Positions 1 through 7,421 of a stretch of DNA of 64,000 nt are shown one piece after another. The position numbers were made by a program, and so were the translations under genes. The notes under the pieces are model-generated. The model saw only the letters and a program-made list of their open reading frames with translations. It was not told the origin of the DNA and searched no databases. Position 1 is the stretch's first letter, and every line of letters begins with the position of its first letter. The DNA is from Corynebacterium glaucum (GTDB taxonomy: Bacteria; Actinomycetota; Actinomycetes; Mycobacteriales; Mycobacteriaceae). Location: contig NZ_CP047358.1 in NCBI RefSeq assembly GCF_030408855.1, positions 1,364,001 to 1,428,000 of the forward strand. The letters are read 5' to 3'.

Positions 1-2435
<2,435 letters not shown>

Positions 2436-2888
2436 TTACTTGGCCTCCTCGCTGGCTTCGACGGTGATGGTGGCCTGCTGCGGGCCGGTCTTGGACAGGT
2501 GGCGCACGAGCTTGCGGGTGTCCACGCCGCGGATGCCAGTCACGCCCTGGTTTTGCAGCTCGTCTTCCAGCGAGCGCTCCGAGCGGAAGTTCGACGGGAT
2601 GCGCGAGACGTCGCGAACTACCACGGCCGCGGCAGTGATGGAACCGTCGCCGGACTCGGCCACGTCCTCGCTGTTCCATCCCACGTTGCCGATCTGCGGG
2701 GTAGCGAAAACGAGGATCTCCCCGCTGCGGGCGGGATCCGTCAGCTCGCGCTGGTAGGCGAACATGTCAGTGGTGAAAGTGCAGTTGCCCTGGATTGCCT
2801 GGGCGGCATCTGGCGCATCACCGAAGAGAAAACCGGGGAAGGTGGCGCCGTCATCAAGCACCAGCTTCGCGTTAACGCGATGAGTCAT
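2436..2888 (-). CDS. carA: CarA N-terminal domain only (carbamoyl-phosphate synthase small subunit without glutaminase)
   Basis: The 150-residue product matches only the N-terminal, CarB-contacting domain of the small subunit. Family landmarks are LTDPARSGEILVFATPQIGNVGWN (residues about 50-73, shortened here to LTDP and PQIGNVGWN) and GVDTRKLVRHL near 120-130. The protein stops just after the position where the linker to the class-I glutamine amidotransferase domain should begin; normal CarA is about 360-400 residues. No GICLG-type cysteine nucleophile or HPE motif is present, and there is no room for one, because carB starts on the base after the stop. Even the kept domain is divergent: NCTFTTDMFAYQ replaces the usual VVFNTSMTGYQ. 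The start has AAGGAG 11 bases upstream and follows pyrC by 7 bases. Either an ammonia-only enzyme with a scaffold subunit, or a decaying gene backed up by a second carA elsewhere. Confidence 0.85.
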   Translation of the reverse strand: MTHRVNAKLVLDDGATFPGFLFGDAPDAAQAIQGNCTFTTDMFAYQRELTDPARSGEILVFATPQIGNVGWNSEDVAESGDGSITAAAVVVRDVSRIPSNFRSERSLEDELQNQGVTGIRGVDTRKLVRHLSKTGPQQATITVEASEEAK

Positions 2889-2895
2889 TGTGTGG

Positions 2896-4185
2896 TTACT
2901 CCTTATCCAGTGCGTACGTTTGGGTGCCGCGCAGCCAGGTGGCCACGACTTTGGCGTTGAAGTCCATGCCTTCGTATGGGGTGTTGCTCGCCTTCGAGGC
3001 CATCGCCTCGCCGCTCGCGGTCCAGGCGTGCTCGGGATCGACCAGAGTGAGGTTGGCAGGCTCCCCGACGGCAATCGGGCGGCCCTGGTCTTCCAGCTGC
3101 ATGATCTCTGCGGGTCGCTCGCTCATCACCTTTGCGACGAAGCGCCAGTCGGCAAGACCCGGCTCGACGAAGACTTGGTGCACGACCGCAAGCGACGTCT
3201 CAAGGCCCAGCATGCCGGGCTTCGCGTGCTCGAACTCCACGCACTTGTCCTCGGAACCGTGCGGGGCGTGGTCGGTGGCGACGACGTCGATCGTGCCGTC
3301 GAGAAGCGCCTCGCGCAGCGCAACCGTGTCGCGGTCCTCGCGCAGCGGCGGATTCACGCGGAAGTTGCCGTCGTAGGTGACCAACTTCTCGTCGGTAAGC
3401 AACAAGTGGTGAGGGGTGACCTCGGCACTTGCCGCAATCCCCTGCTCCTTCGCCCAGCGCAGGAGCTGGACGGTGCCCTCGGTGGAGGCGTGGCAGAGGT
3501 GGTAGCGCCCGCCGTAGTCGCGCGTCATGATCAGGTCGCGGGCGACGATCGACTCTTCGGCAACGCGCGGCCAGCCACGCAGCCCAAGACGAGCAGCGTT
3601 TTCGCCCTCGTGCGCGACTGCGCCGGCGGTCATGCGGTGGTCCTCGGCGTGCTGGGCAAGTACTACATTGTGCGCTTTCGCGTACTCGATCGCGCGGCGC
3701 ATGAGCTGCGGATCGTTGACGCACTTGCCGTCGTCGGAGAACATCCGCACGTGGTTGCGCGCGAGAAGCCCGATCTCAGTGAGCTCCTCGCCCTCGAGCC
3801 CCTTGGTGATGGAGCCGACCGGGTAGACGTCGCACTTGCCGTACGTCTGCCCCTTTTCCCACACCGCCTCGGCCAGGAAGGGTTGGTCGATCACCGGCTG
3901 GGTGTTCGCCATGGTGAACACGGCGGTGAATCCGCCCTTCGCCGCGGCGTCCGAGCCGGTGGCGATGGTCTCGGTGTCCTCGCGGCCCGGCTCGCGCAGG
4001 TGCACGTGCATGTCCACCAATCCAGGCAGCAGTACGTGACCTTCGCAGTCGACCACCTCGTCGGCCTCGAACGGGCCGCTGTTGATCGCCTCGATAACCC
4101 CGGACTCAAGGTCGATGAGCAGGTTCGTCGCATCCTCGCCGTAGGGGCGGACGTTGTTCAGCGCAAGCGTTTTCGGCGTGCTCAC
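2896..4185 (-). CDS. pyrC: Dihydroorotase
   Basis: Closes carbamoyl-aspartate to dihydroorotate, the third pyrimidine step. At 429 residues it is a normal class-I (amidohydrolase-fold) enzyme. Zinc ligands are visible: HVH at 60-62 within [10 protein letters not shown], Asp in SDDGKC near 151, His179 in QHAED, His232 in LCHASTE and Asp305 in ATDHAPH. The ATG overlaps the pyrB stop by 4 bases (ATGA arrangement), so the two are translationally coupled, and carA follows after 7 bases. Confidence 0.97.
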
Positions 4186-5141
4186 AGCTGCACTCCTTCC
4201 TGGCCGTCGCGGCCACTCGCCAACAGGGTGAACAGGACGGCCATGCGGGTGTAGACGCCGTTGGACACCTGGCCAAGCACCACGGCATTGTCGCGGTCCG
4301 CCACCGCATAGTTAATCTCCATGCCCCGCAGCATCGGCCCCGGGTGCATGATGAGGGCATTTGCTTGAAGACGGTCCGCCCGCTGCCCCGACAGACCATA
4401 AAGCGTCGCGTATTCGCGGTGCGAGGGAAAGAACCCGCCCTGCATACGCTCGGCCTGGACACGCAGCATCATGACGACGTCTGGCTTAGTACCGGATTCG
4501 CCGCCGTCGATTTCCGCGTCGAAGTCGTAGCTCACTGTCGCAGGCCAGTGCTCTACCCCGGTTGGGAGCAGCGTCGGTGGCGCAACCAACACGACCTCGG
4601 CGCCGAGCGTGGAAAGCAGATCGACGTTGGAGCGGGCCACGCGCGAGTGCAGAATGTCGCCGACGATGAGGACCTTCTTACCGGCTACATCCCCGATGTG
4701 CTGGCGCATGGTCACCGCGTCCAGCAGCGCCTGGGTGGGGTGCTGGTGCTGACCGTCACCGGCGTTGATGATCGAGGTCTCCGGCAACCACTGGGTCAGA
4801 AGCTGCGCCGCGCCTGAGGCCGGGTGGCGCATGATGATTGCGTCGGCACCCACCGCCGCCAGCGTCGCGGCGGTGTCTTTGAGCGATTCACCCTTCTTCA
4901 CACTCGACGAAGAAGCCGACACGTTGATCACGTCCGCGCTCATCCACTTACCCGCGGTCTCGAAAGAGGAACGGGTGCGCGTCGAGTTCTCGTAGAACAG
5001 GGTGAAGATGGTGCGCCCGCGCAAGGTCGGGAGCTTCTTGATCTCGCGGCCGTCCAGCGCCTCGCGGAACCGGTCGGCTTCGTCCATCAACCCGATGATT
5101 TCGTCGCGGGTGAGGTCTCTGATGTCAATGAGGTGTTTCAT
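4182..5141 (-). CDS. pyrB: Aspartate carbamoyltransferase catalytic subunit
   Basis: Joins carbamoyl phosphate and aspartate to carbamoyl-aspartate, the committed pyrimidine step. The 319-residue protein has the carbamoyl-phosphate signature STRTR at 53-57 and HPTQALLDA from 134, plus the later HPGP loop in [13 protein letters not shown]. No pyrI regulatory subunit gene is nearby, as expected in actinobacteria. Its ATG follows the pyrR stop directly (5142/5141) and its stop overlaps pyrC, so it sits inside a tight operon. Confidence 0.97.
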
Positions 5142-5714
5142 CTAGTTCGCCTCCCGGGTCAGGGTCACGCCGTCGGTGCCGTCGATAGGCGTCAAGCTCA
5201 CGGTGACATCCTCCGTCTTCGCGGTAGGGATGTTCTTGCCCACGTAATCGGCGCGGATCGGCAGCTCGCGGTGACCGCGATCGACCAACACCGCGAGTTG
5301 AATGGCTCGCGGGCGACCGATGTCGCGAAGCGAATCCAGGGCGGCGCGGATGGTGCGGCCCGAATACAGAACGTCGTCGACCAGGATGACCAGCGATCCG
5401 TCCACCTCGGCCGGGATGTGGGTGGGGCGCAGCGCGCGGTGCGGTTTGTCGCGCAAGTCGTCGCGGTAAAGCGTCACGTCGAGGGAACCGACGGGGACTT
5501 CCACCCCCGAAAATTCTTCAACCGCCACAGCGATGCGCTGTGCCAGTGGGACTCCACCGGATGGGATGCCGAGCAGCATCACCCCAGGCTGGCCGTCCTC
5601 CTCTGCGTCATCGAGCGCAGTCTTTTCAATGATTTGGTGCGCGATGCGTGCAATCGTGCGCGAAACGTCCTGGGCTGATAGCAGCTCAACCGTTTCGCGT
5701 GTGTTTTCACTCAT
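5142..5714 (-). CDS. pyrR: Bifunctional pyr operon regulator / uracil phosphoribosyltransferase PyrR
   Basis: RNA-binding regulator of the pyr operon that also has uracil phosphoribosyltransferase activity. The PRPP-binding motif [13 protein letters not shown] is at residues 109-121 of 190, and [12 protein letters not shown] is at about 51-62. It is the first gene of the pyr operon. The start has a very strong ribosome site, GGAAGGAGG, 4 bases before the ATG. In actinobacteria PyrR is thought to repress by hiding the ribosome site of its own leader; the 115-base gap upstream would hold that leader. Confidence 0.95.
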
Positions 5715-5829: not shown

Positions 5830-7170
5830 ATGGGCATTACTGCTTCCCACCTCGTACCCGCCGATCGCGACCGAGTCTGGGACTGGCATACGCGCAAAGG
5901 TGCCGTCGTCAGGCTCACTCCCCCATTCCTCCCAATGACACCGGTGAAGCAGGCCGAAAGCCTGCGCAGCGGCACGACCGTCTTCTCCCTCCCGGCAGGA
6001 TTCCAGTGGGAGGCGCGCCACCTAGTGGAGCAGTACCGCGCTGGCGAACAGTTCGCGGACCAAGCGGTGAACCAGCCGATCAAGACGCTCACCGGCTGGA
6101 CCCACACCCACCAGTTCGCCGATGCCACCACTAATGACGGCTCGCCCGCCACCCGCATCACCGACACGGTTGAGGCAAACGTCCCAGAGTTCGCACTGCG
6201 CCCGGCGTTTGCGTACCGGCAGCACCAGCTGATCGAGGATTTGAAGTTCATCGACTCGCTGCCGGAGACAAAGCCGCTCACCGTCGCCATCACCGGTGCG
6301 TCCGGTCTGGTCGGGTCGCACCTGAGCGCACAGCTGACCACTGCCGGGCACTCGGTGATCTCGTTGACCCGCAGCGACCCGGGTGAGGACGAGCGCAAGT
6401 GGGATCCCGATAACCCGGCGGCAGACCTGTTGGAAGGCGTTGACGCGGTGGTGCACCTCGCCGGTGAGTCGATCATGGGCCGCTTCACCGAGGAGAAGAA
6501 GCGTAAAATCCGCGACTCGCGCATTGGGCCAACCCGGAAGCTGGCGAAGCTCGCCGCGGATTCCGGAGTGGAGACTTTCGTGTGCGCGTCCGCAGTCGGC
6601 TACTACGGCACTGACGCCGGAGATCGTCCCCACACCGAAGCTGACGGCCCAGGCAAAGGATTCCTCGCAGAGGTCTGTGCTGAGTGGGAAGATGCGGCGC
6701 AGGTCGACGGCGTGCGCACGGTGAACATCCGCACCGGCCTCGCGCTCTCCGACGCCGGCGGCCTGCTGCCGGTGCTCAAGGCATCCGTTTCCGCGGGCCT
6801 GGGTGCGCGCTTCGGCGACGGCGACTTCTGGATGTCCTGGGTCGCCCTCGACGACCTCACCGACATCTACGTGCGCGCGCTGGTGGACGATTCACTGCAC
6901 GGACCGATCAACGCCACCGCGCCGAACCCGGTCACCAACGCGGAAATGTCAGCGACTCTGGCTCGCATGTTGCACCGCCCCGATTTCTTCCCCATCCCCG
7001 AATTCGGACCGAAGATCCTGCTTGGCCACGAAGGCGCACACGAGCTCGCGCTTGCAGACCAGCGCGTTGACCCGGCCGTCGCAAAGCAAACTGGAATGAC
7101 CTTCCGCTACCCGACCCTGCAAGCTGCGCTGGCGCACGAGCTTGGCAAAGAGGAACTGCTGAATGGCTAA
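5830..7170 (+). CDS. TIGR01777/YfcH-type SDR epimerase with N-terminal SRPBCC-like domain
   Basis: 446 residues from the ATG at 5830, chosen because AAGGAG precedes it; the frame stays open further upstream but has no ribosome site there. Residues about 1-140 look like an SRPBCC (START-type) ligand-binding domain (ASHLVPADRDRVWDWHTRKG). From about 150 on it is an extended SDR of the TIGR01777 family: nucleotide-binding VAITGASGLVGSHL, then VVHLAGESIMGRFT, ASAVGYYG and VRTVNIRTGLALS. Substrate unknown; the same fusion is common in corynebacteria. It is divergent from the pyr operon and its end overlaps the following lipoprotein remnant by 8 bases. Confidence 0.88.
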   Translation: MGITASHLVPADRDRVWDWHTRKGAVVRLTPPFLPMTPVKQAESLRSGTTVFSLPAGFQWEARHLVEQYRAGEQFADQAVNQPIKTLTGWTHTHQFADATTNDGSPATRITDTVEANVPEFALRPAFAYRQHQLIEDLKFIDSLPETKPLTVAITGASGLVGSHLSAQLTTAGHSVISLTRSDPGEDERKWDPDNPAADLLEGVDAVVHLAGESIMGRFTEEKKRKIRDSRIGPTRKLAKLAADSGVETFVCASAVGYYGTDAGDRPHTEADGPGKGFLAEVCAEWEDAAQVDGVRTVNIRTGLALSDAGGLLPVLKASVSAGLGARFGDGDFWMSWVALDDLTDIYVRALVDDSLHGPINATAPNPVTNAEMSATLARMLHRPDFFPIPEFGPKILLGHEGAHELALADQRVDPAVAKQTGMTFRYPTLQAALAHELGKEELLNG

Positions 7171-7383
7171 GCTGAGGGCCCTCCTCGCATTGCTGGCTTG
7201 CGCCGCGATCGTGACTGCTTGCGGCTCACACTCTGCCTCTCCTATCGAAGACGCGGCGCTACAGGCGGACAACTTTGTGGCCGCCGACATCCTCGCAGGT
7301 GACATCGACAAGGCGTGGAGCGCAAGGAGGTCCAGTTCTCCGACGGCGGAACCAGCGAGGTTGCGGTGCTCTCGTATCAATAG
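7163..7383 (+). pseudogene. Frameshifted lipoprotein gene remnant
   Basis: The reading frame from the ATG at 7163 begins with a clear lipoprotein signal, MAKLRALLALLACAAIVTAC with Cys20, followed by about 35 acidic residues ending DILAGDIDKAW. It then runs into an arginine-rich nonsense tail. In the other frame from about 7324 the DNA reads KEVQFSDGGTSEVAVLSYQ and stops at TAG 7381-7383, which looks like the true C-terminus. The middle is probably deleted, because even both halves joined make only about 73 residues. Overlaps the upstream epimerase stop by 8 bases. Original function not recognisable. Confidence 0.7.
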
Positions 7384-7421
7384 CCGACTGACGACAGGGC
7401 CGTGCGTCCCATGAAGCGCGG

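Follow-up and report, generated by a model that had tools for sequence, protein, structure and literature searches.

Can a carbamoyl phosphate synthase (CPS) that has lost the glutaminase domain of its small subunit still be a working enzyme, and where would its ammonia come from? The question is raised by a 64,000-nucleotide stretch of Corynebacterium glaucum DNA (the window), in which carA (2436..2888, minus strand; ATG to TAA) encodes 150 amino acids plus a stop. A Pfam search matched this protein to the complete CarA N-terminal domain (CarA-N; PF00988, positions 1-126 of 126, 118.7 bits), which was its sole recognised part, with no GATase match in either Pfam or NCBIfam; against TIGR01368 it scored 119.6 bits (cut-off 307.35). 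The original prediction that this CarA stops at the domain boundary was thus borne out, as was the placement of the carB start on the base after the carA stop behind a tidy ribosome site. As read from the sequence of the junction (2433..2450, minus strand), a Shine-Dalgarno-like GAGGAGG (2444-2450) stands just before the carA TAA (2436-2438), which the carB ATG (2433-2435) directly abuts. Among PDB structures, an AF2 model of the domain (mean pLDDT 88.7) most closely resembled E. coli CarA (1jdb_C; TM 0.84, 142 columns, 1.7 A), and its TM to CPS1 was about 0.8.

The surrounding operon is intact, in the order pyrR-pyrB-pyrC-carA-carB-pyrF. Located on the minus strand of the window are pyrR (5142..5714; named by position and sequence rather than by a profile), pyrB (4182..5141; PF00185 place G000:C1:1368227-1368682), pyrC (2896..4185; NCBIfam PRK09357, 683 bits), which ends 7 bases before carA, and the 5' part of carB (1..2435; PRK05294, 1237 bits), of which 811 of 1117 codons are in the window and the remainder lies beyond base 1; pyrF, after carB, was named by eye. 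A pyrR orthologue was present in 98 of the 100 car regions compared. CarB had been described as intact, and in the genome it indeed spans 1117 amino acids with its catalytic residues kept. Elsewhere in the window, an 83-aa lipoprotein-like frame (7163-7414, plus strand) is, by eye, seemingly cut short past its signal region.

The C. glaucum genome is a single contig of 2,529,320 bases (100% complete), and a PF00988 profile search of the whole genome found one place only; no second carA was found, an outcome in line with the original prediction. The same genome holds eight GATase places by profile search, none of them a CarA. Six were identified as GuaA, a PabAB-like fusion, TrpG, HisH and two PRK07567-type amidotransferases, and the remaining two were named by eye from sequence as PurQ and a GatD/CobQ-like protein. 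The two PRK07567-type GATases lie about 6 kb apart (G000:C1:1305826-1306275 and 1312368-1312808; L007 and L006).

We performed a PF00988 profile search over 242 Corynebacterium genomes, of which 16 scored clearly lower and two had no match. CarA was truncated, with a length of 146-167 aa, in 15 of the 242 genomes, representing 14 species-level groups (two of the genomes being C. glaucum), and in the 14 other truncated genomes carB starts 0-23 bases past the carA stop. The sixteenth weak-scoring genome (G226) encodes a full-length CarA, and the remaining 224 genomes have open CarA frames of at least 383 aa (149 + 75). Among the carriers of truncated CarA are C. glaucum DSM 30827, C. stercoris, C. 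riegelii, C. haemomassiliense and five isolates lacking a species name, and the NCBI name of the proteins is "carbamoyl-phosphate synthase domain-containing protein". A second complete C. glaucum genome encodes an identical truncated protein, and the CarB proteins of the 13 other truncated species are 88-93% identical to that of C. glaucum. In a database search for truncated CarA, the 120 of 1304 matches listed included many clusters of the same length, with several weaker matches marked "partial" or located on short contigs; one cluster (P0001) has 35 member sequences on 32 contigs. These data indicate that the truncation is fixed in a group of species and, given the identical protein in an independent genome of the same species and the homologous truncation in 13 further species, that it is a real trait rather than an assembly error. 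The two genomes without a PF00988 match (G020 and G106) had neither carA nor carB detectable. In another genome, two equal-scoring CarA domains lie 7 kb apart (G128:C2:1062488 and 1069454), a possible duplication or assembly repeat.

To find changes that accompany the truncation, we compared 14 truncated genomes with 85 full-length ones; the latter are part of the 224, in which the other full-length CarA proteins were judged by frame length alone. The glutaminase motifs GIC[FL]GNQ and [YF]HPE were kept in all 85 full-length CarA proteins. Among 27 CarB catalytic and tunnel positions (E. coli numbering), all but 232, 240 and 265 were unchanged in the truncated set; position 232 is Ala in 14/14 truncated genomes and Ala (55) or Cys (30) in full-length genomes. 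When diagnostic columns were defined as those at least 90% conserved in full-length CarB and different in the truncated set, 24 were found, each of them within residues 6-352 of the 1117-residue protein (P = 1.1e-11), and 14 of these fall at residues 225-282 (P = 1.5e-12; P = 1.3e-6 within the first 352 residues alone; columns treated as independent in all three tests). The latter segment (1590..1763, minus strand) includes, by alignment, Pro263 (E. coli 259) and Ile269 (codon 1629-1631), the counterpart of E. coli Arg265. At position 265, all 85 full-length genomes have Arg, all 14 truncated genomes have Ile, and G226 has Cys. CPS1 has Arg at this position, and the change is therefore dispensable in some ammonia-type CPS.

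Diagnostic changes were also observed in the kept CarA domain. Asp41-Met42-Phe43 (2760..2768, minus strand) align with E. coli CarA 35-37, of which 35 and 37 presumably have a tunnel role; position 35 is Asp (12) or Asn (2) in truncated genomes, Asp in G226, and Ala (73), Gly (11) or Ser (1) in full-length genomes, and position 37 is Phe in 14/14 truncated genomes, Val in G226, and Thr (81), Ser (3) or Ile (1) in full-length genomes. Ala53 (2730..2732, minus strand) aligns with E. coli Ser47, a glutamine-binding position; Ser is present in 85/85 full-length and 0/14 truncated genomes, and G226 has Val. Two further diagnostic positions are 41 (Arg replaces Glu in 12 of the 14 truncated genomes) and 92 (Trp to Phe, His or Gln), at which G226 keeps Glu and Trp, respectively. 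By alignment offset, positions 41 and about 91 would correspond to CPS1 Glu82 and His142; this correspondence suggests that the N-terminal domain was retained as a wall of the ammonia path.

The full-length CarA of G226 (L054 / L121) keeps its glutaminase domain with Cys, His and Glu all replaced, showing AFGFGAQ in place of GIC[FL]GNQ and DPT in place of HPE. Overlap between this genome and the truncated set was assessed over 609 CarB columns at least 98% conserved in full-length genomes. Nine of these columns carry a change in the truncated set and 21 do so in G226; five of the nine were shared, as compared to 0.31 expected (P = 3.4e-6, columns treated as independent), with the same residue at two of the shared sites (Pro at 259 and Leu at 347). 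In controls that put each of the 85 full-length genomes in the place of G226, the overlap reached one at most. The overlap in CarA-N was not significant (2 shared, 1.59 expected). G226 is a predicted independent loss of the glutaminase within Corynebacterium.

We consider it probable, from sequence comparison, that the truncated form is a working ammonia-only CPS from which the glutaminase domain was deleted and in which CarA-N was retained as the partner of CarB. The original prediction of an ammonia-only enzyme with a scaffold subunit is thereby supported. Under this proposal, the deletion would have occurred in one Corynebacterium lineage, with the N-terminal domain staying bound to CarB. 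CarB would use its two ATP-grasp sites, the residues of which are conserved, to form carboxyphosphate, carbamate and carbamoyl phosphate. Glutamine bound to CarA would no longer be the ammonia source, the glutaminase domain being absent and Ser47 gone; the CarA-N:CarB pair would act on ammonia only, which would enter from solution along the contact zone of CarA-N and CarB, rebuilt in both subunits. We infer that the clustered, coordinated changes form the ammonia entry path and improve the use of ammonia. The product would feed aspartate and ornithine transcarbamoylase.

To characterize selection on the kept domain, dN/dS was determined for close pairs. Values were 0.11-0.31 for truncated carA (seven pairs, of which three come from a single trio of genomes) and 0.03-0.27 for the same CarA domain in six full-length pairs; for carB they were 0.02-0.07 in truncated and 0.02-0.11 in full-length pairs. 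The truncated carA is under purifying selection. The divergence of the kept domain, which the original prediction had noticed, could be quantified, as the CarA-N/CarB divergence ratio was 4.27 among the 14 truncated genomes and 1.91 among 18 full-length relatives, so that CarA-N changes 2.2 times faster per unit of CarB change in the truncated genomes than in their sisters. This faster evolution is a point against the ammonia-only reading; together with the dN/dS range, it makes the kept domain look functional, with altered constraint. Other points on that side are the non-significant CarA-N overlap with G226, the Glu and Trp that G226 retains at CarA 41 and 92, the Arg of CPS1 at position 265, and, as described below, the rarity of urease among truncated genomes and an additional GATase in three of them. 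Purifying selection and the homologous truncation in 13 further species agree with a clean domain loss, not random decay, as had been proposed.

The alternative that fares best, although we regard it as unlikely, is that CarB alone is the enzyme and that the kept CarA domain serves elsewhere, for example in regulation or in stabilising an oligomer. The rapid change of the kept domain would fit this explanation, as would the statement in a review that ammonia-dependent carbamoyl phosphate synthesis and all effector sites belong to the large CPS subunit (PMC6245113). Against it, the changes in CarA-N are coupled to those in the first third of CarB, and the two move together in natural recombinants. 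In a tree of 44 genomes, truncated CarB sequences formed one group (UFBoot 92). Trees of GuaA, GuaA plus PabAB, and pyrRBC, in which several inner nodes are weak, conflict for three genomes; G186, which is truncated, is a sibling of the full-length G111/G223 (support 100), and the full-length G053 and G079 are placed among truncated genomes in these trees. By windowed DNA identity, G186 is G111-like to the end of pyrC, nearer to truncated genomes over carA and roughly the first 400 carB codons, and then G111-like again; G053 and G079 present the reverse pattern, in which the differences within carB are smaller. The conflicting positions can be explained by exchange of carA and the 5' third of carB as one piece, in three genomes but perhaps only two events, and with several tree nodes weak. 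Among 99 genomes, leaving aside G226, truncated CarA always occurred with Ile265 and full-length CarA always with Arg265. The exchanged tract spans the region with every diagnostic CarB site; hitchhiking could account for some of the clustering of these sites, but neither for their concentration inside the tract nor for G226. Under the ammonia-only reading, the kept CarA-N would dock onto CarB and form a wall of the ammonia path.

Another explanation, which we judge improbable, is that a separate class-I glutaminase docks on CarA-N:CarB and supplies ammonia in trans. The two PRK07567-type GATases of C. glaucum would be candidates. GATases were compared by count, score and frame length between 8 of the 15 truncated genomes (5-8 places each) and 8 full-length sisters (6-9 places each, CarA included), and none was shared by the truncated genomes while missing from the sisters. 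Three truncated genomes (G033, G154 and G210) encode an extra free-standing GATase (about 228 aa; E between 4e-22 and 3e-20; L236:397-1083, L237 on the plus strand, and L238:394-1077), and a counterpart at that score was found in none of the 8 full-length sisters; two of these extra proteins were run against NCBIfam and fitted PRK09065 best, below the cut-off. However, the extra GATase is found neither in the C. glaucum genome of the window nor in four further genomes of the 8, and thus it cannot account for the truncated group; one of the 8 (G099) has five GATases only, and, judged by score and frame length, the sisters hold a counterpart of each. The check for a free GATase that accompanied the original prediction came out in its favor, in that none is shared by the compared truncated genomes and missing from their sisters; three of these genomes, C. 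glaucum not being among them, do have an extra one. Further evidence against a glutaminase acting in trans comes from the loss of CarA Ser47, the presumed glutamine-binding residue, in 14/14 truncated genomes and from the CarB changes, which resemble those of the dead-glutaminase lineage G226. Urease was also considered as an ammonia source and rejected; a urease-alpha match was present in 92 of the 242 genomes and in only 2 of the 15 truncated genomes, and hence urease has no link to the truncation.

A third explanation, that the pathway is decaying, with CarA-N a remnant and pyrimidines and arginine taken up, appears very improbable. In its favor are the fast evolution of CarA-N and the situation in G020 and G106, in which carA and carB were not detected and both transcarbamoylases are kept. 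Two PF00185 places, identified as OTC and ATCase from their score and position, were found in all 20 genomes searched, including all 14 truncated genomes; as G020 and G106 hold both PF00185 transcarbamoylases and lack carAB, the presence of these enzymes alone is no proof that CarB is used. Decay would also be in line with the absence of CTP synthase from all truncated genomes. Of the 242 Corynebacterium genomes, only 107 gave a PF06418 score above cut-off, and the 135 others include all 15 truncated genomes; by profile search, with 14/14 control genomes positive, PF06418 was also below cut-off or absent in G226, G020 and G106. At the syntenic place (recN-steA-steB-[pyrG]-nudix-xerD-parA-scpA), no pyrG match was found in 8 of the 9 regions checked, including, for C. 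glaucum, the gap between the steB and nudix genes (L098:4381-4530); the ninth region (G012, L099:4753-4845) retains a 31-residue stub of the pyrG start at the deletion point. With the CarA glutaminase and CTP synthase both gone, the truncated species have neither standard glutamine step of pyrimidine nucleotide synthesis. Among the papers found in a literature search, judged by title and abstract opening and with subscription papers outside its scope, none dealt with CTP synthase in Corynebacterium. Decay is contradicted by the intact frames of 146-167 aa and tidy junctions in 15 genomes, by the carA dN/dS of 0.11-0.31, and by CarB proteins that are 88-93% identical across the 13 other truncated species and carry coordinated changes. 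That assembly or sequencing introduced the deletion between carA and carB has a negligible probability; nothing was found in its favor, and against it stand the identical protein in the second complete genome, the 13 species with homologous truncation and the many clusters of the same length among the database matches listed.

Returning to the ammonia-only enzyme, a broader reading, on which we are evenly divided, is that bacterial ammonia-type CPS may have evolved twice in one genus by a re-plumbed tunnel. The glutaminase-side mouth would have been refitted (CarA 35 Asp/Asn, CarA 37 Phe, loss of CarB Arg265), with ammonia entering at the former glutaminase site or at the CarA-N:CarB seam, and CarA-N plus the CarB carboxyphosphate domain would constitute a glutamine/ammonia module swappable by homologous recombination. 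An ammonia-only enzyme in these species would break the rule, stated in two papers, that "all bacterial CPSases" use glutamine (a review, PMC6245113) and that every CPS type but CPS1 does so (a structure paper, PMC4655335). The group would be a natural exception comprising matched glutamine- and ammonia-type sisters, a dead-domain case and natural chimeras. It would make testable what an amidotransferase requires to live on free ammonia, a question that, to our knowledge, has been studied mainly by mutation of the E. coli enzyme.

As compared to known systems, the C. glaucum enzyme shares with the E. coli-type CarA-CarB (TIGR01368/TIGR01369) the operon, CarB with its catalytic residues in two ATP-grasp halves, and the fold of the CarA N-terminal domain; it differs in its changed contact zone and in the absence of the class-I GATase domain with a Cys-His-Glu triad, the defining feature of CarA. 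The truncated variant does not appear to be described in the literature searched, including PMC6941894 and PMC13260591, with subscription papers outside the scope of the search. Carbamoyl phosphate synthesis by the carbamate-kinase-like enzyme of Pyrococcus likewise uses free ammonia, but this carbamate kinase is structurally unrelated to CPS and its role is still debated (PMC13260591). The closer parallel is mammalian CPS1, in which the glutaminase-like domain is inactive, ammonia likely passes along the N-moiety interface, and Cys648, Ala667 and Ala729 are given as gate residues (PMC4655335). By this analogy, the kept CarA-N may be more than a "scaffold", as the N-moiety interface of CPS1 likely carries ammonia. 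Both enzymes would combine a retained N-terminal domain, no expected glutaminase activity and ammonia from solution (PMC4655335). CPS1 alone is a single chain that keeps the whole inactive domain, needs N-acetylglutamate and is mitochondrial, whereas the truncated Corynebacterium CPS is bacterial and made of two subunits from separate carA and carB genes, with the domain deleted. The truncated CPS is thus like CPS1 in logic, and not a member of the CPS1 type.
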